Part shown: positions 2,015-18,729 of the stretch, one piece after another
Numbering within the stretch: position 1 is the first letter of the stretch
Layout of the letters: the number at the start of each line of letters is the position of its first letter
Virus record (IMG/VR): IMGVR_UViG_3300034374_007268
Span: 1-20,457 of that record
Source of the DNA: a virus
Direction: 5' to 3' (one strand)
DNA: 20,457 nucleotides
Notes under the pieces: generated by a model
What the model was told of the DNA's origin: nothing
The model's input: the letters and a program-made list of their open reading frames with translations, nothing else
Database searches by the model: none
Position numbers and translations under genes: made by a program

Positions 2015-3778
2015 ATGAGTGCGGTTGATGTTTCTTGCTTGAATCGAATGTGGGATTACGTCGATGACGTTATCTCAGATAAGATTGTCACGGGTAAATA
2101 CATCAAAAAAGCTTGCGAAAGGTTCGTTTCTGATCTAGAGCGTGATGACTGGGAGTGGAAGTTTGACATGCAAGTGGCGGCTAAGTACGTCACATTCATA
2201 GAGAAAATCTGCAAGCATACGCGCGGTGAATACGGGGGCAAGGCATTTATCCTGGCTCCGTGGCAGGTATTTTTTGTGGGCCAGATCTTCGGTTGGGTTG
2301 CTGTAGGAGATTTGAAAAGACGTCGGTTTACTACAGCACACCTGTTTGTCGCTCGTAAAAACGGTAAATCCCAGCTAGCTGCAGCTATTGCCCTCGCTAT
2401 GGCTGTCCTTGATGATGACGGGGCCCCGCAACTTGTTACTGCTGCGACTAAGCGCGACCAAGCTCGCGAAGTGTTTGATGAGATATGCCGTTGCGTAAAG
2501 TCCAGCGCTCCTCTTACCAAGCGTTTTAGCGTTCAAAGAGCTGAGATTCGCGCTCCTAAGAGTGGAGTTATCAAGCCACTGAGTTCTGACGCAAACACCC
2601 TTGACGGTCTCAATCTGAATTTAGCTGTGGTGGACGAGTTTCACGCCATGAAGAATGCTGACCTCTATCGAGTCCTGGCTTCCTCAATGGGCTCTCGCAA
2701 GTCCCCTCTCATGCTTGCTATCACAACGGCTGGTTTTGTGGCCGATGGTCCATGCGCGATGTTTATGTCTGCGGGAAAGACCGTCTTGGACGGCAAGAAG
2801 TCTAACGACAGGCTGCTTATCCTTCCATACGAAATTGATGAGGGTGATTCTTGGGACGATGATAGCGTTTGGGTCAAGTCAAACCCAAACCTTGATGTAT
2901 CGATCTCTAGGGAGTATTTGGAAAGTCAATGCAAAAACGCAAAGCTGTACGGCAGCCGTTCGGTAACCGAGTTTATGGTAAAGCACTTGAATGTATTCGT
3001 TGGTTCAAGCGCAATCTGGATCCCCGACGACGACTGGATGTCGGAAGGAAACCTCCGCGATCCTCACGTTACTCACGTCATAGACGAGAAAACGAACAAA
3101 CCCGTCGCATATCTCGGTCTCGATTTGGCCGCCACTGATGACATCACTGCTGTTAGCGTCTGTACTGGCAGCGAAGAGAATGGATGGGGTATCGTCAATC
3201 ACTACTTTCTGCCTGAGCGAGCTATTGAGCGTAGGCTTGATAAGGACGAGAACACTATGTACCTCAAGTTTCGCGACTTAGAAAACGTTCACATCACCCC
3301 AGGTAACGTCACTGACTACAACGTGATACGCAGGTTGATTAGCGGGCATTACATACTCGACGGCAAGGTTGAGTATGATGCAGACAATTTGATGGAGAAG
3401 TACTTGATTAAGGGCGTGGCGTATGACAGGTGGAATTCACTTAACCTTATTCGCGATCTTGAGGGTGACGGAGTGCCTTGTGATCCATTCGGCCAGGGCT
3501 ATGCATCAATGTCATTCCCCTCAAAGGAGTTTGAAAAGTCAGCCTTGAATGGCAAGTTGTGCCATGGAGGGGACGAGGTTATCAGATGGATGATGGGCAA
3601 CGTGAATCTACGATACGATCCAAGCGGGAACATAAAACCAGACAAAGCAAACAGTGGCGATAAGATCGATGGCGTCGTTGCGGCGGTTATGGCTATAGGC
3701 GAGGCCCTGACTTTTGAGGAGGATACCACAAGTGACTTTGAATTCTTTATGGCTGTTGTTGGGGGAGGTAGTGTGTAA
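2015..3778 (+). CDS. terL: Terminase large subunit
   Basis: This is the ATP-driven packaging motor and nuclease, 587 residues, typical for the HK97-like Terminase_1 family. The ATPase domain shows a Walker A motif ARKNGKS at 113-119, Walker B LAVVDEFH at 203-210 with D207 and E208, and a coupling motif ITTAG at 236-240. The C-terminal RNase H-like nuclease shows the expected acidic residues: D370 in YLGLDLAATDD, D471 in VAYDRW, and D552 in GDKIDGVVAAV. All key residues are present, so the enzyme looks intact. It is followed by a 50-base gap before the portal, with no clear terminator or promoter. In the cell it docks on the portal vertex of the empty prohead, fed by the small subunit and probably the HNH protein. 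Confidence 0.96.
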   Translation: MSAVDVSCLNRMWDYVDDVISDKIVTGKYIKKACERFVSDLERDDWEWKFDMQVAAKYVTFIEKICKHTRGEYGGKAFILAPWQVFFVGQIFGWVAVGDLKRRRFTTAHLFVARKNGKSQLAAAIALAMAVLDDDGAPQLVTAATKRDQAREVFDEICRCVKSSAPLTKRFSVQRAEIRAPKSGVIKPLSSDANTLDGLNLNLAVVDEFHAMKNADLYRVLASSMGSRKSPLMLAITTAGFVADGPCAMFMSAGKTVLDGKKSNDRLLILPYEIDEGDSWDDDSVWVKSNPNLDVSISREYLESQCKNAKLYGSRSVTEFMVKHLNVFVGSSAIWIPDDDWMSEGNLRDPHVTHVIDEKTNKPVAYLGLDLAATDDITAVSVCTGSEENGWGIVNHYFLPERAIERRLDKDENTMYLKFRDLENVHITPGNVTDYNVIRRLISGHYILDGKVEYDADNLMEKYLIKGVAYDRWNSLNLIRDLEGDGVPCDPFGQGYASMSFPSKEFEKSALNGKLCHGGDEVIRWMMGNVNLRYDPSGNIKPDKANSGDKIDGVVAAVMAIGEALTFEEDTTSDFEFFMAVVGGGSV

Positions 3779-3828
3779 TTTTATATTACTCACAAAAGCC
3801 GACATAATTTCGCAACAAATCCCGCCAT

Positions 3829-5061
3829 ATGGCCGATAACCGAGGGACCCCAAGCATTTTCAAACGTATTTACGACAGTTTCACTGAGAGCCGCTATACT
3901 GCGGAGCATTCGGCGCTGTCTTTCATGGGCCCTTCCAGTCTGCTTAACAATACGCTTGTCGGAGTAAGCTCTGGTGCTGAGTCGCTTCAACTCAGCGCGG
4001 TCTATTCATGTGTCAGCCGTATTGCTGACACCATCGCCATGATGCCTGCATCTGTGATTAGGGTTGGCCGCGACGGCTCTCGCCGTAAGATGGATAACAA
4101 CCCCATCCACCAGCTCATCTCTCGCGAGCCCAATGACTTTATTGGGGCCTATGAGTTTTGGCAACGCCTGGTCAGCGACGCCCTCCTCTACGGCACGGGG
4201 CATGCTTATATCGATCGGACTGGATCTAAGGTACAGATGTACCACATCCCAGCCAGCCGTATCTCCTCTACGACCAATCCTCTCACTGGAGAGAAGTTTT
4301 ACAGTTACGATGGGGCGCCAAGCAAGATTCCCCAGCGTGATGTTTTGGAGATTCAAGCCTTTCGAGGTTTGAATCCTACGCATATTCAGATCCAGAACCT
4401 AAGTACAGCTAAGGCTGTCCAGGACTTTGGGTCTACGTTTTTCAAAAATGGCGGTATGCTCGGTGGTATCCTGTCTACCAAAGAGCACATGACTGCCGAG
4501 CAGATGAAGCAAGCGCAGTCCACATGGGAGCGTGAGTACACCGGTAGCCGTAACGCCCACAAGGTAGCTATCCTGGGTGGCGGTTTTCAATACCAGCCTT
4601 TGAGTGTACCTCTCGAGCAGTTGCAGTTCCTCGAAATGAAGAAGTACAGCACTGAAGAGATCGCTCGTATCTACCAAGTTCCTCCAGCCATGATCGGAAT
4701 GGAGGGGAATACGGCGTACAGCAACTATGAACAGCAGGTCCTCCAATTCCACCAAGGATGTATCCTCCCATGGGTGCGACGCATCGAGCTCGAAGTCGAA
4801 CGCAAGCTCTTGCGCGGCGACAAAGCCCTGCAATGCACCTTCGACGTCGACACTTTGTTGCGGGCGGATAGCGAGAACCGGGCTAAGTTCTATCACTCCC
4901 TCCTGCAGGACGGCGTCGTGTCCATCAATGAGGTTCGCAGCCGCGAAGGATTTGGTCCGGTTGATGGCGGCGATGAACACCACATCCTTATGAACTCTAT
5001 TCCGCTGAGTCGCATGAACGACTACGCCGACTCGGTGACTAACAAAACTAGCACTGAATAA
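3829..5061 (+). CDS. Portal protein, HK97 family
   Basis: This 410-residue protein matches the HK97-type portal family in length and features. It has an N-terminal segment ending in LSAVYSCVSRIADTIAMMPA (residues about 53-72), the core NPIHQLISREPNDF, and YEFWQRLVSDALLYGTGHAYI. Near the middle are EQLQFLEMKKYSTEEIARIYQVPP and IGMEGNTAYSNYEQQ, a signature of this family. The portal forms the dodecameric ring at one capsid vertex through which DNA passes and to which the connectors attach. The start is the first ATG after the gap; it has no Shine-Dalgarno sequence. The stop overlaps the next start (TAATG at 5059-5063). Confidence 0.95.
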   Translation: MADNRGTPSIFKRIYDSFTESRYTAEHSALSFMGPSSLLNNTLVGVSSGAESLQLSAVYSCVSRIADTIAMMPASVIRVGRDGSRRKMDNNPIHQLISREPNDFIGAYEFWQRLVSDALLYGTGHAYIDRTGSKVQMYHIPASRISSTTNPLTGEKFYSYDGAPSKIPQRDVLEIQAFRGLNPTHIQIQNLSTAKAVQDFGSTFFKNGGMLGGILSTKEHMTAEQMKQAQSTWEREYTGSRNAHKVAILGGGFQYQPLSVPLEQLQFLEMKKYSTEEIARIYQVPPAMIGMEGNTAYSNYEQQVLQFHQGCILPWVRRIELEVERKLLRGDKALQCTFDVDTLLRADSENRAKFYHSLLQDGVVSINEVRSREGFGPVDGGDEHHILMNSIPLSRMNDYADSVTNKTSTE

Positions 5062-5477
5062 TGGCACACTTTTACCACTACAAGATCGTAATGTGTCGCG
5101 AGCGTAGCGACGCTAAGGCCGTGGGGTCTTTGACTTACTCGGAACCCTCGCGTACTGAATATGAGTTTACGCATACAAATGAAGAAGCAAACGCTGCTCT
5201 TGGATTCGCTGACTTTGTTGTAGCCGTCAGAGCAGACATTGTTAATGCGCCTCAACACGTAAACCTCATTGACGTGGAGACAGGAGCGGCGGCTGGTGGC
5301 GCATGGGCTGCAGCTATTGCTGCATCATTTGGCGCATCGTTTGACGACAGCACCGTAGCTACAGAGGGAGCATGGTCGGTCCGTATCGGAAAGGATGTGT
5401 ACCGCCACGAGGTGGGGTATAGCGCTAACGATGCTGCCGGCGCCTTGACCAACCTCACCGCCAAGAACCTCTCCTAA
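5061..5477 (+). CDS. Unrecognised protein between portal and capsid genes
   Basis: This 138-residue protein is not recognised. It starts inside the portal stop (TAATG) and ends in the same way at the next gene, so it is clearly expressed with the head genes. The N-terminal half has alternating polar and hydrophobic residues (FYHYKIVMCRE, VGSLTYSEPSRTEYEF), suggesting beta strands. The middle is Ala/Gly-rich (ETGAAAGGAWAAAIAASFGA), and the end has VRIGKDVYRHEVGY and NDAAGALTNL. There is no signal peptide, clear membrane segment or catalytic motif. Position suggests a capsid-associated or accessory assembly protein, but this is only inference. Confidence 0.75.
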   Translation: MAHFYHYKIVMCRERSDAKAVGSLTYSEPSRTEYEFTHTNEEANAALGFADFVVAVRADIVNAPQHVNLIDVETGAAAGGAWAAAIAASFGASFDDSTVATEGAWSVRIGKDVYRHEVGYSANDAAGALTNLTAKNLS

Positions 5478-5797
5478 TGGCTGACTCCTACGGAGGATAT
5501 CCCGATTCAGCTAAGGCTGCCGCTCGCAAGGCCCTGCGTCATCGCGACGAGAAGGGCAGCAAGTGTGGGACCGCCGTTGGGTGGGAGCGTGCCAACCAGA
5601 TCGCTTCTGGAGAGAAGCTTTCTATGGCTACGATCAAACGAACATTCTCATTCCTTAGCCGCGCTGCCGAGTACAACCAAGGCAAGTTCTACGACGAGGA
5701 CGGCAAGGAGATCTGCGGCAGCGTGATGTACGCTGCTTGGGGTGGTAGCTCTATGAAGAGCTGGTGCTCCGGGATCATCAACAAAAACGACAAATAA
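5477..5797 (+). CDS. Small conserved phage head-gene-associated protein, function unknown
   Basis: This 106-residue protein resembles a small domain I know from phage head gene clusters, alone or attached to portal or protease proteins. It has a YPDSAKAAARKAL helix, then GTAVGWERANQIASGE, then IKRTFSFLSRAAEYNQ, and a final AWGGSSMKSW block. I cannot give its biochemical role. The three cysteines (C30, C80, C97) lie near conserved positions. It starts within the preceding stop (TAATG) and ends 11 bases before the capsid gene's preferred start. Its place directly before the protease-capsid fusion suggests a role in prohead assembly or DNA entry. The gene is confident; the function is open. Confidence 0.8.
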   Translation: MADSYGGYPDSAKAAARKALRHRDEKGSKCGTAVGWERANQIASGEKLSMATIKRTFSFLSRAAEYNQGKFYDEDGKEICGSVMYAAWGGSSMKSWCSGIINKNDK

Positions 5798-5808
5798 CCC
5801 TAGACAAC

Positions 5809-7593
5809 ATGGCTAACAATGTAGAGAAGCGATTCCTGCCTGGCAGCTTTGAGGTTCGCACTGACGAGGGTAAGCCCACCGTAGTGGAGGGTTACGCCGC
5901 CGTCTTCGATGACGAGACTGTCATTGGCGGATCTTTTGCTGAACGCATCGATCGCGGCGCCTTTGATGGCGCGGACATGTCCAACACCGTGGCGTTGTTC
6001 AATCACGACATCAACAAGCCCCTTGCCCGTGCTGGTCACGGACTGGAGCTCACCGTTGACGAGCGTGGATTGAAGTACCGCTTCGAGGTAGGCAACCAAA
6101 GCTACGCCCAAGATCTGGTAGAGAACATCCGAATGGGTAACGTCTCGACCAGCAGCTTCGGCTTTACTATCAAAGATGACGAGTGGGAGATGCGTGACGG
6201 TGGTATGAACCTCCGCACCATCAAAGAGGTGGATCTGCTCTTCGACGTGTCACCCACTACGCAGGGTGCGTACCCCACTACCGAGGTGGGCTTGCGCTCT
6301 ATGGAGCTGGCTATGGCCAACGCCGAAGTCACCGAGATCGAAGAGGAAGAGGTGCGATCTGAAGAGGTGGTAGAAGAAGAGGTAGTAGCAGAAGTTGAGG
6401 CGGCAGACGAAGAAGACTGCGGCTGTGAGGATAACGAGGTTAAGCCCGTTCCGCGCAGCGAAGAAGTAACGCTCGAAACGGCGGACGCCCCCGTCGCCGA
6501 AGAGAGTGATGAAATTATTGAACGGGGCGCAGAATCTGAAATCTCTATGAACGAAGAGAAAAACGCACCCGCAGTGGTGCAAGGATTGGGCGACAAAGTC
6601 CAAAACGTCCGCGCCCGTTTTGATTTGGGCAAAGCTATCCGCGAAGCGGCTAACGGTGGCTTGACTGGACTCGAAGCCGAAGTTAACCAAGAAGGTGTAA
6701 GCGAGTTCCGTGGATCGGGCTTGGCTGTGGCTAACGGCATCAGCATCCCACGCATGTTTATGTCTCGTGCCGCTGTAGGCGTCATGGGTGCAACTGCTAC
6801 CCAGGACGGTGAGCACGAAGCTTTGGCTGGCACCACTGTCGCTACCGAGATCCAGGGTCCTATTGCTGACTACAAGCCAGTGACTATCGCCGATAAGATC
6901 GGTGCTCGTCGCATCTCTGGCGTTGTTGGCGATATCACTATCCCTGTTTTGACTACGCCACTCACCTACGGCGTTGAGAACGAGGCTGCGGACCGGGCTT
7001 CATCAAACGCTGCCTTCACCGATGTGACGCTTACTCCCACCCGTATCGCTTCTCACGCAAAGGTGACGCAGCAGTTGCTCACGCAGAACAGCTTCGACCT
7101 CCAGTCTTTCCTGGCTGCCGACATGCGTCGCGGCATGGAAGTGGAGTACAACAAGTTGATTGTGTCTGCCATCGGCGGTGTGACTGAGGTGGACTACAGC
7201 GCCGCCGCCGCCGCTGATATCCCCTACTTGTTGGAGGAGCTCATGCGTGCGGACGATGTGGATCCATCGGGTGCCGTGTTCCTCACGGAGCCAGGTGTAC
7301 TCCGCGCTTTGCGTCAGGCTTCTCTCGACGCTGGTTCTGGTATGTTCGCTGCACCTAACGCAAACAGCATCATTGGATACAACACGGTTACTTCAACTTT
7401 GATTGGAGATGACCTCATCTACATGATTCAGCCACAGGAAGTTGTGACTTGCGAATGGGGTGGTTTGAACATCATGGTTGATCCGTACACGGAGGCTCAC
7501 AAGGACACTGTCCGCATCATCGCCAACATGTACGCTGACGCTGCTGTCTTGCGCACTGACGGTGTGAAAGGTGGTGATCTCTCTCCCGCCTAA
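5809..7593 (+). CDS. Prohead protease fused to HK97-fold major capsid protein
   Basis: One 594-residue chain joins two proteins that are usually separate. Residues about 1-165 are a prohead protease: EGYAAVFDD (27-35), the catalytic His in LFNHD (H66), the nucleophile region NVSTSSFGFT (111-120, likely S116), and EVDLLFDVSPTTQGAYP. Residues about 173-250 are very acidic, with runs of Glu and Asp. They lead into a charged helix (about 262-282) that may act as a scaffold-like delta segment. Residues about 320-594 are the capsid protein, with an N-arm, GDITIPVLT, HAKVTQQLLTQ, and a typical C-terminal end (IIANMYADAAVLRTDG). The ATG at 5809 is preferred over 5764, which would lie inside the previous gene. 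The protein should cut its own linker during maturation. A strong terminator follows. Confidence 0.93.
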   Translation: MANNVEKRFLPGSFEVRTDEGKPTVVEGYAAVFDDETVIGGSFAERIDRGAFDGADMSNTVALFNHDINKPLARAGHGLELTVDERGLKYRFEVGNQSYAQDLVENIRMGNVSTSSFGFTIKDDEWEMRDGGMNLRTIKEVDLLFDVSPTTQGAYPTTEVGLRSMELAMANAEVTEIEEEEVRSEEVVEEEVVAEVEAADEEDCGCEDNEVKPVPRSEEVTLETADAPVAEESDEIIERGAESEISMNEEKNAPAVVQGLGDKVQNVRARFDLGKAIREAANGGLTGLEAEVNQEGVSEFRGSGLAVANGISIPRMFMSRAAVGVMGATATQDGEHEALAGTTVATEIQGPIADYKPVTIADKIGARRISGVVGDITIPVLTTPLTYGVENEAADRASSNAAFTDVTLTPTRIASHAKVTQQLLTQNSFDLQSFLAADMRRGMEVEYNKLIVSAIGGVTEVDYSAAAAADIPYLLEELMRADDVDPSGAVFLTEPGVLRALRQASLDAGSGMFAAPNANSIIGYNTVTSTLIGDDLIYMIQPQEVVTCEWGGLNIMVDPYTEAHKDTVRIIANMYADAAVLRTDGVKGGDLSPA

Positions 7594-7602
7594 ACTCTAA
7601 CG

Positions 7603-7633
7603 AAAGGGGCTAGGAATTGGCCTGGCCCCTTTT
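7603..7633 (+). terminator. Intrinsic terminator after the capsid gene
   Basis: AAAGGGGCTAGG (7603-7614) pairs with CCTGGCCCCTTT (7621-7632) over 12 positions, one of them a G-T wobble, around the 6-base loop AATTGG. Four T residues (7630-7633) end the hairpin, the first three of them paired. It lies ten bases after the capsid stop and 13 before the next gene, so it probably limits read-through from capsid transcription to connector genes. Confidence 0.85.
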
Positions 7634-7645
7634 ATCTCTCTCTGC

Positions 7646-8317
7646 ATGAATATCAAGATTACGCGCACCTCTACTGACGCTGGTTACACCCTCTACGATA
7701 GTAATGAAGCTACCGCCATGGGTCTGATCCGCTCTCACGTGCGCGCTATCGACGACAGCGAGGACGATCTCTTAGAGCTTTACCTCGATGCTGCCATTGA
7801 CTACATGCAGGAGCTTAGCGACAGGGTTATTGGTACAAGCGATGTGGTTGTTACTTTGGATATCAATGAAGCCCGTAGAGGCATCACGATACCTAAGTGT
7901 CAGAACGCATCGAGCACTGTCACGATTAAGTACCGTAAGGACGATCAAACGTGGTCGGAGGATGTGCTGAGCGCAACTATCCCGGATCCGCAAAACCAGC
8001 CTGATGGCACTATCGACAACCCCGACTACATCGCAGACCTAGAGTACCTATACCTCTACGATCGATATCCTGTACACGTTGACGTCAGCGATTTGATCGA
8101 TAAGACCACGGACCCTAGTGACTTTGACACTGACTTCGTACAGATCACCTTTACTGCTGGCACGGCCCTGAGTTCGCTTCCTAAGCAGTACCGTCAAGCA
8201 GCCTTGCTCTTGGTGGGTCACTACTACAACATGCGTGAAGCCGAAAATATCGGCGGTATCACAGTGGAGCTCAAAGAGGGTGTCCGCCGTCTCATCCAAA
8301 GTGTAAGACAATACTGA
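7646..8317 (+). CDS. Head-tail connector, gp6-like/phiE125 gp8-like
   Basis: This 223-residue protein begins with the pattern of the adaptor family that binds under the portal. Its N-terminal helical part has GLIRSHVRAIDDSEDDLLELYLDAAIDY (split here as IRSHVRAIDD and LLELYLDAA), followed by a beta-rich middle. The C-terminal helix is LPKQYRQAALLLVGHYYNMRE with a short end VRRLIQSVRQY. That layout is typical of the gp6-like and phiE125 gp8 families. Ring-forming adaptors extend the portal channel. The first ATG follows a terminator by 13 bases and has a CTCT-rich leader without a Shine-Dalgarno sequence. The stop overlaps the next start (TGATG). Confidence 0.85.
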   Translation: MNIKITRTSTDAGYTLYDSNEATAMGLIRSHVRAIDDSEDDLLELYLDAAIDYMQELSDRVIGTSDVVVTLDINEARRGITIPKCQNASSTVTIKYRKDDQTWSEDVLSATIPDPQNQPDGTIDNPDYIADLEYLYLYDRYPVHVDVSDLIDKTTDPSDFDTDFVQITFTAGTALSSLPKQYRQAALLLVGHYYNMREAENIGGITVELKEGVRRLIQSVRQY

Positions 8318-8697
8318 TGAAGGCAGGGCAACTCAACGAGAAGATTGATATCTACCGTCCCACAAGGACTATCAATCAATTTGGCGACGTCATCGAAACC
8401 TATGCGGAGTGGAAGATGGGCGTGCGCTGCAGCATCCTCTCTCTGGGAACGCCTTCGGCTGGTGCATCGGAATTTACCGATGACGATCAGGAGGTGGGTG
8501 AGATGAAGGCTGAATTCAAGTGTCGCTGGGTCAGCGACATCAAGTTTGACGACGTCATCGTATGGAACGGTGGCCACTTCAACTTGTACTCGATTTTGCC
8601 CATTGGTCGCCGCGAGGGTATGCGTCTGCGCGCCCGTCGTCGCGACAATGGGAACCTACCTATTACTGGTCACACCGAAACTAACCCAACTATCTGA
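8317..8697 (+). CDS. Head-tail stopper/joining protein
   Basis: This 126-residue protein matches the small beta-barrel head-tail joining family (Phage_H_T_join, SPP1 gp16-like). It opens with the common GQLNEKIDIYRPTRTINQFGDVIETY, seen here as KIDIYRP and FGDVIETYAEW. This is followed by VRCSILSL, a flexible loop with acidic residues, and strands KAEFKCRWVSDIKFDDVIVW. Such proteins cap the connector and keep DNA inside the filled head until tail attachment. Start and stop both overlap neighbours as TGATG, indicating coupled translation within the connector set. Confidence 0.86.
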   Translation: MKAGQLNEKIDIYRPTRTINQFGDVIETYAEWKMGVRCSILSLGTPSAGASEFTDDDQEVGEMKAEFKCRWVSDIKFDDVIVWNGGHFNLYSILPIGRREGMRLRARRRDNGNLPITGHTETNPTI

Positions 8698-9215
8698 TGG
8701 CTAGTTCTGGTGGATACAAAGCGAACTTCTACCTGACCGGCTTCAAGCGGTCCGATCCCTTTGCTACGCGCTTGCGTCAAATCAAGAGCATAGCTAACAG
8801 GAAGAAGGTCATCTTCCGAGCTATGGCTAACGCTGGGCAATCTATGCGTGATGCCATGGAGGCTGGCGCCCCCGTGAGGACGGGTGTGCTGAGCCAGTCG
8901 TACAGGATCAGAAGACTGAAAAACACCCCACAGTTTGTATTCGGTGTTCGCATCGGTGCAATCAGTGGACCCCGAGTCGTGTCGCCAGGCATGCTGGACA
9001 ACGCTAAGATCGATGGTTACGATGAAGGCGATCAGTTCCAGATGGCGGGGTGGCGCGATCACTGGGCTGAGTTAGGGACTAGGTACCAACGTGCCCAACC
9101 CCACGTTCAGCCAGCAATTAAAAAACACCTTTCCACATACAACCTTCGTTTGCGTAGGGCTCTGGCGGAGATCTTCCAGACCAAGTTCTACAAGAAGATG
9201 GTTGGTCAGGTATAA
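8697..9215 (+). CDS. HK97 gp10-like neck/tail completion protein
   Basis: This 172-residue protein fits the HK97-gp10-like family of head-tail junction proteins. It has a basic helical start, then AMANAGQSMRDAMEAGAPVRTGVLSQSY, of which APVRTGVLSQSYRI is the family hallmark. Next come strands FVFGVRIG, then HWAELGTRYQRAQPHVQPAI, which resembles the family's typical 'E-x-GT...A.P...PA' ending, and a C-terminal helix. It is encoded last of three connector genes. In most HK97-like phages a tail terminator gene comes next; here the tail tube gene follows directly, only nine bases on. Confidence 0.85.
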   Translation: MASSGGYKANFYLTGFKRSDPFATRLRQIKSIANRKKVIFRAMANAGQSMRDAMEAGAPVRTGVLSQSYRIRRLKNTPQFVFGVRIGAISGPRVVSPGMLDNAKIDGYDEGDQFQMAGWRDHWAELGTRYQRAQPHVQPAIKKHLSTYNLRLRRALAEIFQTKFYKKMVGQV

Positions 9216-9224
9216 AACAAAAAC

Positions 9225-9869
9225 ATGGCACTACTAAACGCAAACTACCTTGGGCTTTATGCCTTTGCCGACTCGGGGCAGACCTCAGCGTACCGAGTCG
9301 TTGACAACTCTAGCCTTTCTACTGCAAAAACAAACTTTCTCTCTGCCGCCGCTAATGGCGAGTACGGTCTTCTCGTAAACGGTAACGACCTGTGGGAGGA
9401 TACAGGCAGCGTCCCCGCTATTGGTTACGACAACTCTAGCGCTTGGGCTAACGCTGCAGGAAGTCTCGACCTCCTCGCTGCCGCGACCTCCACCACCCTC
9501 GATATGAACAACTCTATCGACGAGGTGGTAGCTAAGAGCACCCAGTGCAACTCCGAAACCTACATCGTAGGCGGGGCACAGGCGTGGAGCTTGTCTGCTG
9601 ACGGTTTGATTCAAGACACTATTTCAGGCAGCCAGATGGGGGCTACAGCACTCATGGACATCGCTCGAGCCAGTGAGTATGTAATCGTCCGCTTCGTCCT
9701 CGATGTCACCGACAAAGACACGGCTGGAACTAATGAGAATCAAGTCAACTACATTGGTCAAGGCATCATCGAAAACGTAAGTCTCACCGGCGGATTTGAC
9801 GACACGGCGACGTACTCTGTTACTGTTCGTGGATACGGCAAGTTGTACCGCTATAACAACGCAAGCTAA
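9225..9869 (+). CDS. Major tail tube protein, copy 1
   Basis: This 214-residue protein is a likely tail tube subunit of the TP901-1-type family. It begins with ALLNANYLGLY. The C-terminal half carries AQAWSLSADGLI (118-129), ALMDIARASEYVIVRF (142-157), and YIGQGIIENVSLTGGF (176-191), then TATYSVTVRGYG. Members polymerise as rings around the tape measure. It is clearly paralogous to the next gene: in the stretch 176-199, 16 of 24 residues are identical by my hand alignment. The leader is A-rich (ATAAAACAAAAAC) without a Shine-Dalgarno sequence. An insert near 160-175, absent in copy 2, may form a surface loop. Confidence 0.82.
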   Translation: MALLNANYLGLYAFADSGQTSAYRVVDNSSLSTAKTNFLSAAANGEYGLLVNGNDLWEDTGSVPAIGYDNSSAWANAAGSLDLLAAATSTTLDMNNSIDEVVAKSTQCNSETYIVGGAQAWSLSADGLIQDTISGSQMGATALMDIARASEYVIVRFVLDVTDKDTAGTNENQVNYIGQGIIENVSLTGGFDDTATYSVTVRGYGKLYRYNNAS

Positions 9870-9875
9870 GAAATC

Positions 9876-10448
9876 ATGGCAGTAATTAACGCAAACTGTT
9901 TGGCTATCTACTACGACAGCCAAAACTCACAAAGCAAGGCCACGGTACTTGGCCCATATGCAAATATCTCCGAATACGAGGGGACCTCGCCTGGTGCCAC
10001 TTCAAACATCATCCTTGCTGACGATGATGCTAGTAGCGGTGAACGAAACATCTTTACCGGCTACGGCTCAACAGATGAATTAAACCTTTGGACTGAGTAC
10101 CCTCTCACCTTGGCTGGCGCGGCCACTACGAGCTCAGTGGACTTGTCTAATACTGTTGACAACGTAGCTCGCGATGGCTCTGGCGGTGTCCTTCAGCAGG
10201 CCACCCAGGAATGGAGCTTGACGGCTGACGGATTGATCGAGTCTAGCGGCGATGCTGGTGAGAGCCTCATGGACCTCGCCCGCAACAAGTACTACGTCTT
10301 CGTGAAGTTCTCTATCGACAAGAACGGTGTTGCTACCGACTACGTTGGTCAGGGAATCATCGATAGCGTCACGCTCTCTGGCGGAGTTGATGAGATCGCT
10401 ACGTACAGCGTCTCTATCACGGGTGTAGACGCACTCTTCAAAGCATAA
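9876..10448 (+). CDS. Major tail tube protein, copy 2
   Basis: This 190-residue protein is a diverged tandem paralogue of the gene before it, six bases downstream. Shared blocks are INANCLAIY at the start, QEWSLTADGLIE (111-122), SLMDLARNKYYVFVKF (130-145), YVGQGIIDSVTLSGGV (156-171) and ATYSVSITG near the end. The N-terminal halves differ much more. Both keep the fold-defining strands, so both could be built into the tube, or one could be a specialised tube, initiator or sheath-like ring. A strong terminator follows seven bases after the stop, which also fits a highly expressed structural gene. Which copy is the main tube protein cannot be told from sequence. Confidence 0.82.
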   Translation: MAVINANCLAIYYDSQNSQSKATVLGPYANISEYEGTSPGATSNIILADDDASSGERNIFTGYGSTDELNLWTEYPLTLAGAATTSSVDLSNTVDNVARDGSGGVLQQATQEWSLTADGLIESSGDAGESLMDLARNKYYVFVKFSIDKNGVATDYVGQGIIDSVTLSGGVDEIATYSVSITGVDALFKA

Positions 10449-10454
10449 TAACCC

Positions 10455-10486
10455 GGGGCGGCGGGAACGCTCGTCGCCCCTTTTTT
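10455..10486 (+). terminator. Intrinsic terminator after tail tube genes
   Basis: GGGGCGGCG (10455-10463) pairs with CGTCGCCCC (10472-10480), with one wobble. Two further pairs can close a 4-base loop. Six T residues follow (10481-10486). This is a textbook factor-independent terminator placed between the tube genes and the chaperones, whose products are needed in smaller amounts. Confidence 0.93.
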
Positions 10487-10496
10487 CTCCAACCAC

Positions 10497-10835
10497 ATGA
10501 ATACTCTTCGAGGACAATTTTCTTTTGAGCTCGGCAAGAAGAAGTACCAAGCTTCTTTGACACTTAACGCTCTCCGTCTTATGTGCAATGCCATGGGCGT
10601 AAAGCTGGCTGACATCGACAAGTGGCTCAATGACGATCCATTGACGGCGGTGCCAGCTTTTGCATACTATGGCGTTAAAAACGAATCGGCGCGAAAGGGC
10701 AAGGACTCTGGCCTTCCAGACTTTGAGCAATTCTGCGCTCTCGCTCTCGACGATCAGGAAACGCTTGACGCTATGATGAAGGCAGTCACAGTGGCTCTTG
10801 GTGGCCAAGAAGACGAGGAGCCCGAGGGAAACTAA
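10497..10835 (+). CDS. Tail assembly chaperone, gpG-like
   Basis: This 112-residue protein lies between tail tube and tape measure genes, where the tail assembly chaperone always sits. It begins with a beta-hairpin-like part (LRGQFSFELGKKKYQASLTL), then helices (NALRLMCNAMG, DIDKWLNDDPLTAVPAFAYYGV, FEQFCALALDD), and ends in an acidic tail (GGQEDEEPEGN). Such proteins coat the tape measure and recruit tube subunits; they are not in the finished virion. Its last two codons are GGA AAC, part of a G GGA AAC slippery heptamer immediately before the TAA stop. A fraction of ribosomes should shift -1 and add the gpT-like domain encoded downstream. Confidence 0.88.
   Translation: MNTLRGQFSFELGKKKYQASLTLNALRLMCNAMGVKLADIDKWLNDDPLTAVPAFAYYGVKNESARKGKDSGLPDFEQFCALALDDQETLDAMMKAVTVALGGQEDEEPEGN
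10826..10832 (+). promoter_or_regulatory. -1 programmed ribosomal frameshift site, G GGA AAC
   Basis: The heptamer GGGAAAC is in the exact X XXY YYZ phase of the gpG-like frame (codons 10827-10829 GGA and 10830-10832 AAC) and is followed at once by TAA. After tandem slippage the next codon is CTA (10832-10834), opening a frame to the TAG at 11159-11161. AGGAG at 10816-10820, a few bases upstream, could act as a stimulating internal Shine-Dalgarno-like element. A short hairpin is possible downstream (CGAG 10843-10846 with CTCG 10852-10855, or CAGA 10848-10851 with TCTG 10856-10859), but it is weak. Confidence 0.92.
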
Positions 10836-11161
10836 CGCCCCCCGAGACAGACTCGTCTGAGGTTCTTACGTGGAACAGCCTGTACAAGGCTGGACTCATG
10901 ATGGGACTCAAGCCCGACGAGTTTTGGGGGTTGACCTTAAGGGAGTTCTCTTGGATGAGGGAGGGCTACATGCAAGACATGAGTCATCGATGGGATCACA
11001 CCGCATCGATTCTATGCATGATAGCCAACGTCAACTCGGCCAAGGGCAAAACGTTTAAGCCGGATGATTTCCATCCGTTTAGCAAAAAGTCTAATCAGGG
11101 AGTTCGCAACAAAGAAGAAGCTGCTGCGCTCCTGGAGAAAATGAGAAACTTCAATGCCTAG
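10832..11161 (+). CDS. gpT-like domain of the tail chaperone, made by -1 frameshift
   Basis: This segment is read only after the -1 slip and gives a fusion of about 221 residues (112 from gpG-like plus 109). The added part starts LTPPETDSSEV and then LTWNSLYKAGLMMGLKPDEF, followed by WGLTLREFSWM and RWDHTASILCMIANVN. This is the usual pattern of the second tail chaperone domain. The conserved WNSLYKAGL block lies upstream of the first ATG in this frame (10898), so independent initiation would remove part of the domain. The frame has no stop from 10769 onward and overlaps the gpG-like gene by 67 bases. Its end overlaps the tape measure start by eight bases. In lambda the gpGT extension bridges tape measure and tube protein; the same role is inferred. 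Confidence 0.9.
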   Translation, partial: LTPPETDSSEVLTWNSLYKAGLMMGLKPDEFWGLTLREFSWMREGYMQDMSHRWDHTASILCMIANVNSAKGKTFKPDDFHPFSKKSNQGVRNKEEAAALLEKMRNFNA

Positions 11162-14100
11162 TATTACAGGTGCCAGTAGGCTAGCGGCCATTATGACCCT
11201 CGACCTCCGTCCGTTCTTGAAGAACACGGAGATCGCAAAGACTAAGCTTTATCAGTTTCAACAGCAGGCCCAGGCTATTGGTTCGGGGACTCTCCGCACC
11301 ATTGCCCTGGGCTTTGGCCTTGTAGGACTTGCTGCCATCGATGTAGCTAAGGACTTCAATGAGATCGAGTCTCAGCTCCGCGCCATCGGCGGTAGAGACA
11401 ACATCGACAAGGTGATCGACCAAGCCCGTGAGCTGGGTCGTACCACCAAGTTCACCAGTACCGAGGTGGTGACCCTCGGCCTGGAGCTACGTAAGCTCGG
11501 TTTCGATGCCGAGCGCGTTACGGGCGCTATGACTGTAGCCACCAAGCTTAGTCAGCTCTTTGGTGGTGAGCTATCGAAGGTGGGTGTCACCATCGCCGAG
11601 GTGCAGCGTCAGTTTAAGGGGGCCAACGGAGAGCTTCGGTCGTTTGAAGATATCGGCGACATCTTCGCTGTAGCATTTAAGGAGAGCGCCCTTGATATCA
11701 CGAACCTCGGTGGCGCCCTCAAGAACGTAGGTACGGTAGCCAGCCAGTCGGGTCTCACGTTGGAGAAGACTGTGGCTTTGCTTGGGGGCCTGGCCAACTC
11801 GGGACAGAAGGCCGAGCGTGCTGGTACGCGTCTCAAGACTACGCTTATCCGTTTGGGTCGGGAGTTTGGATTCACGGAGGATCAGACTCGGCTCCTTCAA
11901 TCTGGAACGCTGGATATTGCTCAAATCTTTGACTTGCTCAAAAACAGGGCTGGTCTTGCGGGTGCCGTGATTAGCCAGAACTCCAAGGAGATCGCCATCT
12001 TGGAGGAACGCCTACTGGACGCTAAGGGAGCTTTGGACGCTATGTCTCAGGGTCTTGAGGGCGAGCTGTTTATCAGCGTAGCTAAGGTCAAGGCCGGCCT
12101 TGAAGATATGGCCATCACCCTTGGCGACGCCTTGGCTCCGTATGTGGAGTCTTTATCTGAGTCAGTGTCTGACTTCGCCAAGTATTTTGACGGTCTCTCA
12201 CTATCGACAAAAGATTCGATAGCTCAACTTACAATTCTGTCGGTCCTTCTGCCAGTTTTGACTGCTGCTTTTGCGGGACTTATAGCTGCTTCACTTGCTC
12301 TTTGGGCTAATCCAGGCATTGCTGCTATAGCTCTGCTTGCGACTGTTTTCTTGGACTTGCAAATCAAGGCTGCTGCATACAGGAAAGAGCAAGAGCAACT
12401 GAACAAGGCGTTTAGTCAGTACTATGACCTGATGGTTGGGGTCAATGAAAATGGCGATACGATTTTTGACCCACGCCTTCTTGCCGAAAGTAGCACTCAG
12501 GCTCTAGAACAGGTTCTAAAGAACACGGAGACTGCTATCGAAGCTGCTCGAAAAAGAGTTGAAAGGGCAGAAGAGCAGAGGCAAAGAGCTATCAACAGAG
12601 CTATCGCATCGGGTCAGGCAGCGGCTGCCGCAAGCCCTCTTTTGGCCGATGATACCGCTGCAACTAAGAGGACAAGAAAGGAACTTATTTCTTTATATGG
12701 CCAACAGTCCGACTTGCTTGACATCTTAGAGAAGAGAGAGGATCGATTGCTTGACTTGGCGGACGAAAGGCTTGAGGTAGCTAGACGTTATTCAGAGTCT
12801 TTGGGATTAAATAACGAGCTGACGCTCAAATTCCAAGAGACCTGGTACAAGACAGGCAGCACGATTGCCGAAGCACTAGGTAAATTTGGTTTTGCTGTAG
12901 ATGATCTTGAGGTTGTAAGAGAGAAGATTGAGCAGATCAATGACCTCTCGTTCCTAGATATTTTAGCTGATGGATTCCCAACAGATCTGGTTGACGGGAT
13001 TCTCGATAAAGGTTCTCTTGAAGATCAGAAGAAGCTTGTTGAGGCTATTGTAAAAGAGCTTGAAAAAATTGGTCTTGAAGCGGTTGGTGAGGATGCAGTC
13101 GACTTTGCTAAACTCTGGGAGGAGGCGTCTAGGTCTTACGAGGCTACTCTTAAAAAGCTGGCGGCTCGTATTGAGCTGAAGGGCATTGTAGACGCGAGGA
13201 AGGAGGCTATCGGCTTGGCTGAGTCCATGAAGGAGCTCGGTCTATCTACTGAGGACGCCTACCTCAAAAGCAAACTTACCGCATATACGTCCGAGCTGGA
13301 GGGCTTGCTTGGCATGGGGTATAGCGAGACGGGCAAGACCGTTGTAGACCTCACCAAGAAGATCGAGGATCTAAACAAGGAGATAGGCGCCCTGTCGGCT
13401 AAAAACGCCCTGGAACAAGCCCTGGGGGCTCCTGAGGACGTAGAGTTGTATGCCCAGAACTTGGGCATATTCACCAAGTCTCTTGCTGGCCTAGCCTCGT
13501 TGGAGACAGCTCGGCTCAAGTCCGATCTAGACGCTATCTATGCAAACTTCAACGATCCCAACGGCACAAAGACTGTAGAGGACCTAGAGAAGGCTATTAA
13601 AAAGTGGCTCCAAGCCTTGGACGCGCAAGAGTTCCTGGAGGAGAAGGAGAAGATTGACGATGCTCTAAAGGATCTGGTACCCAAGTTTAAGAGCCTTAAT
13701 GAAAGCATCAGGCTTGGCGATCTAAACCAAGAGGACGCAGCAAACGAGCGTATCAACATCCTTCGGGAAGAGATCGACTTGCTTGAGCAAAGAAAGATTC
13801 TTACGGGCGAGGAGTCGAAGAGACTCAAGGCTGCCAGGGTAGAGCTCCAGCAGAACCTGGCTATAGCTAAGGACTTTGAGAATGCGGCTGGTATCACATC
13901 GTTCTTTCAGACTCAGATCTCGTTTTTGGGTGACGCCTTCCTTGCGGCGGCACAGAACGGGGAGGATTTCTTTACGGTTCTCAAGAAGAGCTTTCTCGAC
14001 ACCTTCTATGCTTTGGTGGCCAAGCTCATCACCCTCATTGCGCTTTACGGCATCCTCGCCGTGATATCAATGGGTTCTACTGTTGGCGCCGGCGGCATCG

Positions 14101-14315
14101 GTGGCGCAGCAAAAGCAGCTATGGGTGAAAACTTCGGTTCGTTCCTTGGCACCAACCTCATTGGTGTCAATCGATCGCTTGCCGTAGGTAGCAGCTCCGC
14201 CAGTACTCCTGGCTCTGATGACGGTAGCCTAAAAGTCATGGGTGCCGTATCAGGCAACAACCTCGTAATCATGAACCAGCGCGGCAAACGCGCATTCGAT
14301 CGTACTTTTGGGTAA
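11154..14315 (+). CDS. Tape measure protein
   Basis: This is the longest gene here (1,053 residues). The N-terminal part has TP901-type tape measure core features: FNEIESQLRAIGG (68-80), ARELGRTTKFTSTEV (91-105), LRKLGFDAERVTGAM, and KVGTVASQSGL-like and LANSGQKAERAGTRLKTTL blocks up to about residue 235. Two hydrophobic stretches (about 358-385 and 387-402) and one near the end (about 951-973) may span the host membrane when the protein is ejected. Long charged helical segments, including an Arg/Glu-rich coiled-coil-like run near 455-560, fill the middle. No lysozyme or peptidase motif is seen. Using the common rule of about 0.15 nm per residue, the tail would be about 150-160 nm long. Base composition changes in the middle of the gene. 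Confidence 0.95.
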   Translation: MPSITGASRLAAIMTLDLRPFLKNTEIAKTKLYQFQQQAQAIGSGTLRTIALGFGLVGLAAIDVAKDFNEIESQLRAIGGRDNIDKVIDQARELGRTTKFTSTEVVTLGLELRKLGFDAERVTGAMTVATKLSQLFGGELSKVGVTIAEVQRQFKGANGELRSFEDIGDIFAVAFKESALDITNLGGALKNVGTVASQSGLTLEKTVALLGGLANSGQKAERAGTRLKTTLIRLGREFGFTEDQTRLLQSGTLDIAQIFDLLKNRAGLAGAVISQNSKEIAILEERLLDAKGALDAMSQGLEGELFISVAKVKAGLEDMAITLGDALAPYVESLSESVSDFAKYFDGLSLSTKDSIAQLTILSVLLPVLTAAFAGLIAASLALWANPGIAAIALLATVFLDLQIKAAAYRKEQEQLNKAFSQYYDLMVGVNENGDTIFDPRLLAESSTQALEQVLKNTETAIEAARKRVERAEEQRQRAINRAIASGQAAAAASPLLADDTAATKRTRKELISLYGQQSDLLDILEKREDRLLDLADERLEVARRYSESLGLNNELTLKFQETWYKTGSTIAEALGKFGFAVDDLEVVREKIEQINDLSFLDILADGFPTDLVDGILDKGSLEDQKKLVEAIVKELEKIGLEAVGEDAVDFAKLWEEASRSYEATLKKLAARIELKGIVDARKEAIGLAESMKELGLSTEDAYLKSKLTAYTSELEGLLGMGYSETGKTVVDLTKKIEDLNKEIGALSAKNALEQALGAPEDVELYAQNLGIFTKSLAGLASLETARLKSDLDAIYANFNDPNGTKTVEDLEKAIKKWLQALDAQEFLEEKEKIDDALKDLVPKFKSLNESIRLGDLNQEDAANERINILREEIDLLEQRKILTGEESKRLKAARVELQQNLAIAKDFENAAGITSFFQTQISFLGDAFLAAAQNGEDFFTVLKKSFLDTFYALVAKLITLIALYGILAVISMGSTVGAGGIGGAAKAAMGENFGSFLGTNLIGVNRSLAVGSSSASTPGSDDGSLKVMGAVSGNNLVIMNQRGKRAFDRTFG

Positions 14316-17287
14316 TGGCTATCACCAAGAACTTTGAGACGGTATACACGGCCCCAAAAGGGGAAAAGTACACGGTGGTTATCGGCACTCTTAGCGGCGA
14401 TGTTCCGGTTGGCGCTTCCTTCAACAAGGAGTTGGAGATGATGGCCCCTGGCCTTACGATATCGTACAACGCCGACCCCAACACATCGTTTAAGCCCATC
14501 ATGGCTTCAAACCTGTCTGCGTCGTTTAAGATGACGCACGATCAGTACATGAAGTGGCGAGCTCTCATGGAGCAGCCAGAGGGCGATGTCTTTGTTGTGG
14601 TGTACAAGGGCGATATCCAGGACTCCGACTATGTCTTTTGGTACGGGCATATGCTTCCCGAAAGCTGCGTCATCGACATCCAGGAATGCCTTATTTCGGT
14701 TCAATTTATTGATGGGCTAGCCTCACTAGCCTATGTGGACTGGAAACAGAACGACGGTACGCCATATGATGATTGCAACCTGCAGGTTGTGATGGGCAAT
14801 ATCTTGAAAAAGATTCCCGGGTGGATGGCTTTCTACAACCTGCACGCCAGCAATGGAAAGCTCAAGGCGGCCATCAAAGAGGTCGGCCTGCCTAGACCGT
14901 CTATCAACGTCAGTGTGACCGACGTACCATTCGAAGGTCAGAACATGCTGCAGATGACGTGGATACAGCAGAGGACCTTTGTCAAGAGAAAGAAGCGCAC
15001 TGAGAAGTGGCGTCAGTTGCCATCGGATCCAGAGTTCATCAGCACTTATGACGTGCTTGAGGACGTATGCGCCATGTTTGGCTGCAACTTCTTCCTCTCT
15101 AGGGGCTACTACTGGATGTTCAACCGGCCTGCTGTGCTGCAGTTTGATGCCGACAACTCGGTGGTCAAGATGGCGCTCCACAGAACCACTACCACAAGCC
15201 CCGATCTTTTTGCATCCGGAAATGCTGCGTCTACCATTTCAGATCTTCTTAGAGACGTCGACGACACTCACGACTTCATCGCTGGAGCCACTGAGACACG
15301 GAGCATACCGATCTCGGGAGTCTATATGGAACACGAGGAGGCGGGCAGCGACTTGATCATTGCAGAAGGCGTCTCCAGCCTGGGTTACGACCCTGACTTG
15401 GCATCGTCTCTTGGCGCCAACTTCTTTACGTCTGGATCGCCTGTCAATTATTCTAACGCGTCTTACTACATAGAGTCACTGCACTATGTTTTGTGGCGTT
15501 GGTTTCGAAGCACGGATGCGGAGTGGGACGCCAACCAGTTGCCAGGGTATAACCTCAACGGCGCCGCTAGAACGTATTACGGAACGGGCAGCAACCTTGT
15601 GGAATGGAAGCACCCGCTGGCTTACTGTGGTTATCCAGAAAGGAAGCGTTATGCGCTAGCCCTGCCTGGCGGCAACGAGTTTCGAATCAAGTTTTCTGGC
15701 AACCTCGTAGCTCGATCAGACAACCCTTCCGGCAAGGACTTCTGGGTTGGAGCCGTAGCAGTCTTAAAGCTGCGCCTTCAGGTTGCTCATACCGACGGCA
15801 CTAACTACAGGCTCAAGAGGTGGGTTAAAACTCATTGGTGGGATACGGAGACACAGTCTGCCGACGGGATTCGTATCAACGGTATCACTAGCGTGTACTT
15901 GAACAGTGACGTCTATTACTACCGTAAGTACTACGATGAGCTCGAGTGGGTTGATGAGAATGACGCGGACTATGCTGATGCTTTTTATGAGATCATCATC
16001 CCGCATGGTGACAACAACAGGATAGAGTCTTACTATGGGTCTGACACCGAGGCTCTCGATGTCGAGTACGCCAATCAGACCGTGTACACGCCATTCCACG
16101 TTGAGGTCAGCGGCGATAATACAGGCGACGGCGTCATCTTTGACAAGAAGGTAGATGACGAGCGAGGCAAGTACTGGTTCGTTGAAGACCTGTCTTTCAC
16201 TTTGCCTGAGGTAGCTGGAGAATTTGACTTCCTCGATAGCGACTGGATCCTTGAGATGTACCTGGCCGATCAAGGGCCACGACCTAACGTAGACCCCACC
16301 ACACTACCTCTTTGGTATGAAAACGCTCCTGGTGGAACCGATCCAGCAGACATGTGGACTGACAACAACTGTCCAACTAACAATCCCAGCTACAGGAGCT
16401 CTTCCTCTGAGGGGACCTTTGAGATTGGATACACGGACGGCGTGATCGACACTAATGTTGGTTGGGGGCCTGGCGATTTTGACACCTCGGATGAAAAATA
16501 CCTATATCCCAAGGAGTTCATGATGAAAAACTGGGCGGTATACCTTGGTGACGGGTCGGCTGAAAGTAATGTCTTGACATCTGTCAATGGGGGTCCTGGG
16601 TTTGAGGAGATGGGTATGACGTCCTCACGTCTAGGCTCTCGATCCACGTACAACCATTCGTATACTCACGGTGCCCTAAAGACCAAGTATTGGTTTGAAG
16701 GATCTCTTCTGCCCGACACCAACTGGACGTCAGTGACATCATACCCTAAAACACAGATCTATTGGGTTCCTTACAAAAACGATGAAGCAGGCGGTGCTGG
16801 CTTGACTGACGCATACAATAGCCTGCACGGCTTGGTGTGTTCAGAATACATGAGCTTTTTTGCAAGCAGCAATATGATGGTGACTGGATCTATTATAGCT
16901 AGAGTGCCTGGAAATGACTCCTATTTTGGCCCATACCAGACGATTCAAACCAACAAGCTTGACGGTATCTCAACGCTGAAACTCGTGCCGTTATCACTGT
17001 CGTGGAATATGGTATCTGGGACTCAATTTACCGCTATGGCCATCCCGAGCGGTCGGTATGCCGCTGTCGAAGAGTATGTCGAGAGCAACAACAAGGGTCC
17101 TGGCGGTGGCCGCAAGCCTGGCGCCCTGCCTACAGGCAAGGTTATGGCTAGCGTCAGTCAGATCCGCCAAAACCGCAACGTGGGACAGCAAAACACGGGT
17201 AACATCACCGTCATCGACGGCAAGTTCACTGACCTTAACACCGCGAAGGACGACCTCGAAGCACAATCCTTTTTCCTCGAACGATAA
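14315..17287 (+). CDS. Large tail-tip/baseplate hub protein of Bacteroidota-phage type
   Basis: This 990-residue protein follows the tape measure, where distal tail and hub proteins are encoded. Its N-terminus (about 1-145) has a layout I know from tail proteins of Bacteroidota phages: a strand-rich start (EKYTVVIGTL), APGLTISYNADPNTSFKPIM (44-63), then EGDVFVVVYKG, YVFWYGHMLPESCVIDIQE, and VQFIDGLASLAYVDW (129-143). The rest is beta-rich and aromatic, with many Tyr and Trp, consistent with a receptor-facing tip. The end (about 895-990) has a Gly/Pro-rich linker (NKGPGGGRKPGALP) and a small terminal domain. No separate Dit and Tal genes are found, so this protein may combine both jobs. Start and stop both overlap neighbours as TAATG. 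Confidence 0.72.
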   Translation: MAITKNFETVYTAPKGEKYTVVIGTLSGDVPVGASFNKELEMMAPGLTISYNADPNTSFKPIMASNLSASFKMTHDQYMKWRALMEQPEGDVFVVVYKGDIQDSDYVFWYGHMLPESCVIDIQECLISVQFIDGLASLAYVDWKQNDGTPYDDCNLQVVMGNILKKIPGWMAFYNLHASNGKLKAAIKEVGLPRPSINVSVTDVPFEGQNMLQMTWIQQRTFVKRKKRTEKWRQLPSDPEFISTYDVLEDVCAMFGCNFFLSRGYYWMFNRPAVLQFDADNSVVKMALHRTTTTSPDLFASGNAASTISDLLRDVDDTHDFIAGATETRSIPISGVYMEHEEAGSDLIIAEGVSSLGYDPDLASSLGANFFTSGSPVNYSNASYYIESLHYVLWRWFRSTDAEWDANQLPGYNLNGAARTYYGTGSNLVEWKHPLAYCGYPERKRYALALPGGNEFRIKFSGNLVARSDNPSGKDFWVGAVAVLKLRLQVAHTDGTNYRLKRWVKTHWWDTETQSADGIRINGITSVYLNSDVYYYRKYYDELEWVDENDADYADAFYEIIIPHGDNNRIESYYGSDTEALDVEYANQTVYTPFHVEVSGDNTGDGVIFDKKVDDERGKYWFVEDLSFTLPEVAGEFDFLDSDWILEMYLADQGPRPNVDPTTLPLWYENAPGGTDPADMWTDNNCPTNNPSYRSSSSEGTFEIGYTDGVIDTNVGWGPGDFDTSDEKYLYPKEFMMKNWAVYLGDGSAESNVLTSVNGGPGFEEMGMTSSRLGSRSTYNHSYTHGALKTKYWFEGSLLPDTNWTSVTSYPKTQIYWVPYKNDEAGGAGLTDAYNSLHGLVCSEYMSFFASSNMMVTGSIIARVPGNDSYFGPYQTIQTNKLDGISTLKLVPLSLSWNMVSGTQFTAMAIPSGRYAAVEEYVESNNKGPGGGRKPGALPTGKVMASVSQIRQNRNVGQQNTGNITVIDGKFTDLNTAKDDLEAQSFFLER

Positions 17288-18726
17288 TGGCAAACAACTT
17301 TAAGAGCAAGGAAGTCACCTACACCACTAGTGGAACACAGTCACTACTAACCTGTAGCGTCACTAGTATTATCGTCTCATCGATCACGTTTCAGGTTGAG
17401 GATGGTGACACCGCCAGTGCTTCGGATCTTTTGTTCTCAAAAGATGGCGGCACTACACGTAGCATCAAGAAGATTAAAACGCTGAGTGGTGGTTCTGCGG
17501 TAGAATTTCTCGACCGTAGCTTTGTCATGAATGACAACGACCAGCTTCAGCTTAGCGTTACAAGCCTGTCGGGAACTGCCGTTGCAACTATCCACTACCT
17601 AGAGAAGACGGCTTCGGCGGCATCTGGAAACCTTGGCGACCTAGACAACGTCTCTGCCGCTACGCCAAGCGACAATTACGTTCTGGCCTGGGACGCAGCC
17701 ACTAGTCAGTGGGCCCCTCAGTCCATTGAAAGCTCTGACATAACGGGCGCAAGCACGACAGCAGACCTGCCGCAACAAAGCACTGGATCCGAGCCTTTCA
17801 ATAGGTACATGAAGGGGTTCAATGCTTTAGATCAGTTGACGAATGCTGCTGCTGAAACTGCGGCAGAGGCTTTATATGGATCGCCAGCGTCAATAAAATT
17901 CGTGGCGGAGAATACAGATCTCAGCACGATCAAGCCTATGAAGGTGACTTTTCAAGACATCATCCAGGCTATCATTGAGGTGGGGGCTAACGACCTTGCA
18001 GCCGATCCATCTAACGACTACGACATCAATACCTTTACAGGCAGCGGAGGTGTGGGTGACTTGAATGGTGATGGCGTTGTTAGTGTGGCCGACTTGCTGG
18101 AGTTTCTGATCACGTTCGGTCAAGCTTGGGGTTCTTCTTCAAGTAACCTATTCAATCCTTCTACGATTGAGTTTACAGACTCTGACGCGCATCAGATTGG
18201 AACAAACATAACGACCATTACGTTTTCATCGGGCGATGTTACTGTAGTCGATGCTGGAACTCAGACCATCACAGTAGACAACACCAATGACTTGGTGGAG
18301 ATAACTAGCCTCAACAGCACCCTAGATTTAACTCTGGTGCCTTCTAAAGAAATTACCTTCTCTTCGTATGCTAACTCAGCAGCGTATGTCTCGACAACAC
18401 AAGCAAATCAAACCATAGTACTGTGGGCATATATCCGCCTTTATGATTCGTCATCAGTACAGCTAGGTACTACAGCGCAGATATTCCTCGGTAATAAAAC
18501 GTTTGCTCAAGCGCAAGCGGGGCAGGTTTGGGAAACATTCAACCCTGTAACGGTAATAAACAGCACCATACTATCTGGTACTGGACATACCAGCGGATGG
18601 AACAACTCAAACGTAGACAAGTACGATATCAGATTGGCCGCCCAAACCAACGGGGGTGGGGCGACAATTCAACTCGACAATGTAAGGGTGAAGATGACAT
18701 CTGGACAGTACACTCCTGAAATCTAA
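17287..18726 (+). CDS. Tail fibre/adhesin with dockerin-like calcium loop
   Basis: This 479-residue protein is modular. Residues 1 to about 107 look like a small beta-sandwich domain (YTTSGTQSLLTC, LLFSKDGGT, SAVEFLDRSFVMNDNDQLQL, VATIHYLEK). Next is a common fibre motif, NLGDLDNVSAATPSDNYVLA, then WDAATSQWAPQ. Residues 258-269 (DLNGDGVVSVAD) match the calcium-binding loop of type I dockerins, followed by LLEFLITFGQ. Only one clear loop is present; real dockerins usually have two. The C-terminal part (about 335-479) is Thr/Ser/Val-rich and beta-rich (TIVLWAYIRLYDSSSVQLG, TIQLDNVRVKM), like a carbohydrate-binding or adhesion domain. It probably sits on the tail tip and helps bind the cell surface. 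It overlaps the previous stop (TAATG). Confidence 0.78.
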   Translation: MANNFKSKEVTYTTSGTQSLLTCSVTSIIVSSITFQVEDGDTASASDLLFSKDGGTTRSIKKIKTLSGGSAVEFLDRSFVMNDNDQLQLSVTSLSGTAVATIHYLEKTASAASGNLGDLDNVSAATPSDNYVLAWDAATSQWAPQSIESSDITGASTTADLPQQSTGSEPFNRYMKGFNALDQLTNAAAETAAEALYGSPASIKFVAENTDLSTIKPMKVTFQDIIQAIIEVGANDLAADPSNDYDINTFTGSGGVGDLNGDGVVSVADLLEFLITFGQAWGSSSSNLFNPSTIEFTDSDAHQIGTNITTITFSSGDVTVVDAGTQTITVDNTNDLVEITSLNSTLDLTLVPSKEITFSSYANSAAYVSTTQANQTIVLWAYIRLYDSSSVQLGTTAQIFLGNKTFAQAQAGQVWETFNPVTVINSTILSGTGHTSGWNNSNVDKYDIRLAAQTNGGGATIQLDNVRVKMTSGQYTPEI

Positions 18727-18729
18727 GAC

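Follow-up and report, generated by a model that had tools for sequence, protein, structure and literature searches.

The two tail assembly chaperone products of phage lambda are made at about 30 to 1 by means of a frameshift site, GGGAAAG, and the arrangement is widespread among phages (PMC5009743). The gene order there is tail tube, G, T and tape measure; the ribosome shifts by -1 near the end of G, and T, which is related to the Pfam family Phage_tail_T, has no separate start. For one tail chaperone cluster an experimental value of 7% has been published (PMC3711429), and neither this value nor the lambda ratio is transferable to the phage described here. The heptamer GGGAAAC has been described at the same place in gp18/gp19 of Burkholderia phage KL1 (PMC3483164), and as the tail chaperone shift site of Caulobacter phage Colossus (PMC3556154) and of the haloarchaeal virus HCTV-1 (PMC5009743). 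Tail chaperone frameshifting, including that on GGGAAAC, is thus already published and a well-known phage device. According to the literature on the A-site codon, GGGAAAC slips less readily than GGGAAAG on Escherichia coli ribosomes (PMC5009743); equal slipperiness of the two on bacterial ribosomes is not to be assumed.

The locus considered here lies in a window of 20,457 nucleotides, the whole stretch of viral DNA that was analysed (Table 1). Two overlapping ORFs stand between a major tail protein gene and the tape measure gene, giving the lambda order of tail tube, G, T and tape measure, and the tape measure gene overlaps the 3′ end of the T frame. The -1 shift near the end of G, the lack of a separate start for T and the relationship of T to Phage_tail_T are likewise common to both systems. 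The preliminary description had compared the site to that of lambda; the letters differ, the heptamer being GGGAAAC, not GGGAAAG. Other differences from lambda are a predicted RNA stem about 7 bases downstream and a gpG that has no detectable sequence similarity to any Pfam family. KL1 gp18/gp19 differs in its stop codon (TGA), in a gene that separates the frameshifted pair from the tape measure gene and in belonging to another lineage, while Colossus and HCTV-1 share the GGGAAAC tail chaperone site and differ in lineage and host.

Table 1. Features of the tail chaperone locus, in window coordinates.
Feature	Position	Strand	Basis or remark
Tail tube protein gene, just 5′ of gpG	9876..10448	+	phrog_1407 major tail protein; weak Phage_tail_2
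gpG-like tail assembly chaperone gene, zero frame	10497..10835	+	ORF of 112 aa; relatives; predicted fold
AGGAG, earlier proposed as stimulator; doubtful	10816..10820	+	not conserved; few Shine-Dalgarno sequences in phage
Slippery heptamer G GGA AAC	10826..10832	+	in-phase invariance in close relatives; base-level constraint
T domain, -1 frame after shift	10832..11161	+	109 codons and stop; Phage_TAC_6, Phage_tail_T; no start before 10898
Zero-frame stop TAA, adjoining heptamer	10833..10835	+	sequence; stop 0 or 1 codon after heptamer in 31/36 representatives
Predicted stimulatory RNA stem	10839..10930	+	10839-10845 with 10924-10930, continued by 10850-10857 with 10916-10923; folding against recodings
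First ATG of T frame, within conserved domain; unlikely start	10898..10900	+	first-start position not conserved
Tape measure protein gene	11154..14315	+	PhageMin_Tail and several PHROG tape measure families

The identity of the two products was approached through sequence families and predicted folds. The T product matches Phage_TAC_6 with 25.6 bits, above the cut-off, and Phage_tail_T with 24.0, just below the cut-off of 25.9; at E <= 0.01 the aligned T relatives match these families in 26/26 and 20/26 cases, respectively. Judged by these matches, the T domain is related to gpT or another tail assembly chaperone family. The gpG-like zero-frame product has no match in Pfam and a weak tail match in PHROG (E = 0.024). 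Its structure is predicted with a mean pLDDT of 83, and the predicted fold resembles those predicted for viral and phage proteins, several of which carry the name tail assembly chaperone (E of about 1e-3 to 1e-1); a fold search of the PDB returned no match for either the gpG or the T domain. On both sides of the G/T junction the prediction is of low confidence, and the junction is probably disordered, as would suit two domains joined by a linker.

Several features were seen around this gene pair. Upstream of gpG are two tandem tail tube genes, 9225-9869 and 9876-10448, which are 31% identical (E = 1e-23) and both match a major tail protein family. The stretch 10455-10496, between the tail tube gene and gpG, contains a terminator-like hairpin, GGGGCGGCGGGAACGCTCGTCGCCCC, followed by TTTTTT, which is kept in the clade of this phage, and a recurrent ACCAACCAC stands directly before the gpG ATG in place of a Shine-Dalgarno sequence. 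Farther away, a single ORF (5764-7593) holds prohead protease and major capsid protein domains together.

The gpG ORF ends in GAG GGA AAC TAA, so that GGGAAAC is read in the phase X XXY YYZ, and the -1 frame is open from 10769, after a TGA at 10766-10768, to a TAG at 11159-11161. What the preliminary description had read from the sequence is correct: the position and phase of the heptamer, the TAA after it and the extent of the -1 frame. The background rate of in-phase XXXYYYZ heptamers, taken from the upstream parts of these genes, is about 0.0036 per codon (13/3600). One exactly at the stop and in the right phase is therefore unlikely by chance, and conservation of the heptamer in relatives rules chance out. 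These relatives were collected by scanning IMG/VR with each domain, the heptamer not being a criterion of selection. Every close relative, whether found via one domain or the other, has GGGAAAC in this phase, with 0 or 1 codon between it and the first stop, and in each the -1 frame continues for no fewer than 110 codons without a stop. The alignment of related phages proposed earlier as a check thus finds the heptamer kept in every close relative.

Is it the protein or the nucleotide sequence that is conserved? When eight close groups were aligned, the only fixed residues of the junction, which otherwise varied in sequence and length, were the Gly-Asn specified by the heptamer and one proline; across 26 divergent sequences the Gly was invariant and the Asn nearly so. 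Among 36 representatives, which were picked for carrying the heptamer and are mutually related, the codon that supplies the first G of the heptamer specifies any of seven amino acids (S, E, K, G, A, P or T), yet its last base is G in every case, compared with 27% for the remainder of the gene; the Gly codon of the heptamer is GGA throughout, as against 31% outside it. A varied amino acid with a fixed G ending, together with the fixed GGA, indicates a constraint on the bases rather than on the protein.

The same constraint bears on a first alternative, that the T frame is translated independently, from the ATG at 10898 or from a rare start codon such as CTG or ACG, and that no fusion is made. 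An ATG ATG pair at 10898 might speak for it, as might a GTG or TTG shortly before the domain in a few relatives and an ATG soon after the heptamer in one (L119). The open stretch of the T frame, however, contains no ATG, GTG or TTG before 10898, which is 22 codons past the heptamer; a gene caller requiring ATG would lose 22 residues, as had been counted before. Initiation at 10898 would also drop the conserved TWNSLYKAGL block, whose WNSLYKAGL core had been placed upstream of this ATG from the outset, along with most of the first predicted helix (T residues 14-23). Nor is the position of the first start codon conserved: it varies from 14 to 35 codons after the heptamer across close relatives, and in two of them (L013 and L018) it lies 34-35 codons past it, deep in the domain. 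Since independent initiation would moreover leave the base-level conservation of the heptamer unexplained, we consider it very improbable.

A feature absent from the preliminary description, and added here, is a predicted RNA stem downstream of the heptamer. It was evaluated by folding 105 downstream bases against recodings that preserve the T protein and its codon usage. In this phage the predicted stem is a long-range one, its 5′ arm starting 7 bases past the heptamer as in most relatives, and the downstream fold has z = -3.55, none of 200 recodings being as good. Compared with synonymous recoding, folding is better in most representatives (mean z -2.5), and the 60-base stretch just past the heptamer has a mean z of about -2, against about 0 to -0.9 for most of the region from -360 to +420; as the representatives were selected for the heptamer and are interrelated, these statistics show consistency and not exact probabilities. 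When the representatives are aligned on the heptamer, the averaged 5′-arm signal jumps at +7 and stays at 0.8-0.95 through +14; the values are relative and come from local folding. The predicted onset at +7 falls within the roughly 5-9 bases at which a stimulatory downstream stem would be expected to begin. The stem sequences are entirely different between clades, and in some they are predicted local hairpins of 8-13 pairs (L088, L091, L099, L112, L114 and L119). A search of the whole window against Rfam gave no family.

An upstream stimulator had also been proposed, in the form of the AGGAG that precedes the heptamer by 5 bases. Its position is correct, but a stimulatory role is doubtful. SD-like motifs of at least 4 bases are more frequent before the heptamer (17/36) than further upstream (39/216), but the linker there is rich in Glu and Gly codons, which favour SD-like letters, and no SD-like 4-mer stands at this place in 19 of the 36 representatives; AGGAG was therefore not accepted as a stimulator, and the 36 representatives do not show conservation of an SD-like upstream element such as a dnaX-type signal has. 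The phage itself hardly uses Shine-Dalgarno signals: at its gene starts, from 310 to 19737, anti-SD complementarity averages -0.58 kcal/mol, against -2.72 kcal/mol at random sites, and only one of 19 starts reaches -4.5 kcal/mol or lower. This weak complementarity, taken with the lack of conservation of AGGAG, makes a Shine-Dalgarno-type stimulator unlikely from the sequence. The host, for its part, probably does not depend on Shine-Dalgarno initiation, and a Bacteroidota host would fit the low usage. One weak relative of the T domain (33%) occurs in a named Bacteroidota genome, that of Fibrisoma montanum; 396 genomes of the phylum gave no other hit.

A wider set of relatives was gathered by a motif within the T domain alone, which yielded 112 distinct proteins. 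The T frame overlaps an upstream ORF in the -1 arrangement in 107 of them, and an ATG lies well upstream of the motif in just two. Their sites comprise 50 GGGAAAC and 8 GGGAAAG, the others having A runs, other heptamers or none. The preliminary description would have been contradicted by related phages lacking the heptamer and starting the second frame with an upstream ATG of its own; this combination occurs in one distant relative (L306) and in no close one. In L007-L009, whose T domain is at about 41%, and in L064-L066 and L125, no canonical XXXYYYZ lies near the stop of the upstream ORF despite the overlap; L125 has only AAACCCT there. The absence of a canonical heptamer from some distant relatives was counted against the frameshift reading, as were the lower slipperiness of GGGAAAC in E. 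coli and the failure of gpG to match Pfam or any PDB fold. In other clades (L146, L152-L154 and L159; L061, L174 and L242), GGGAAAG or A runs replace GGGAAAC. Stretches of about nine A at the equivalent position (L061; L174 and L242) could slip in transcription, and the fusion might accordingly arise from RNA polymerase adding or skipping a base. GGGAAAC, however, is not a long homopolymer, and the codon phase and downstream stem conserved in this clade fit slipping by the ribosome, so that transcriptional slippage is extremely unlikely here. That the two frames reflect a sequencing error or a decayed gene, conceivable for a single metagenomic contig, deserves almost no credence, as dozens of contigs from different samples share the arrangement, and sequences as little as about 25% identical have it too.

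Phase, conservation, the lack of any other start, the predicted stem, domain identity and gene order together point to a -1 frameshift joining two tail assembly chaperone domains, as originally suggested, and we hold it highly probable that ribosomal frameshifting at GGGAAAC yields both gpG and a G-T fusion. Most ribosomes would read 10497-10835 and stop at the TAA, giving gpG of 112 aa. With GGA in the P-site and AAC in the A-site, some would slip back by one base onto GGG AAA, presumably aided by the predicted stem that starts about 7 bases downstream. These shifted ribosomes would continue in the -1 frame to 11161 and produce a fusion of 221 aa with the sequence ...EEPEGN-LTPPETD...TWNSLYKAGL.... 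By analogy with lambda, gpG would bind along the tape measure protein, and recruitment of the tail tube protein would fall to the T portion of the fusion, the rarer product. That the fusion is made at a set low ratio, as the preliminary description put forward, is one of the weaker points of that reading; as in other G/G-T systems of long-tailed dsDNA phages, both products may be made at a fixed ratio and be needed for tail assembly.

The last base of the heptamer was also compared with the strength of the stem. Local stems are stronger in clusters with GGGAAAC than in all other clusters (P = 0.008), but against A- or G-ended sites the difference reaches only P = 0.06, in a comparison in which the heptamer assignment is uncertain for distant clusters and the clusters are not independent; an association between the last base and stem strength is only a suggestion. 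Clades with GGGAAAG have seemingly weaker local stems. It is conceivable, though we think it rather unlikely, that the chaperone ratio is set by GGGAAAC together with a strong stem at +7, the two being traded off against each other, so that GGGAAAG, the stronger site on bacterial ribosomes, goes with weaker stems, in a host that probably does not rely on Shine-Dalgarno sequences.

New in the present case are a further group of metagenomic phages with this device and the positionally conserved predicted stem. The annotation of an uncultured phage group is corrected: the T domain is to be read as part of a fusion, without a start of its own. The heptamer is kept while the stem sequence changes completely, which amounts to a natural experiment on the determinants of the frameshift ratio in tail assembly, and one that comes in phages hardly using Shine-Dalgarno signals.
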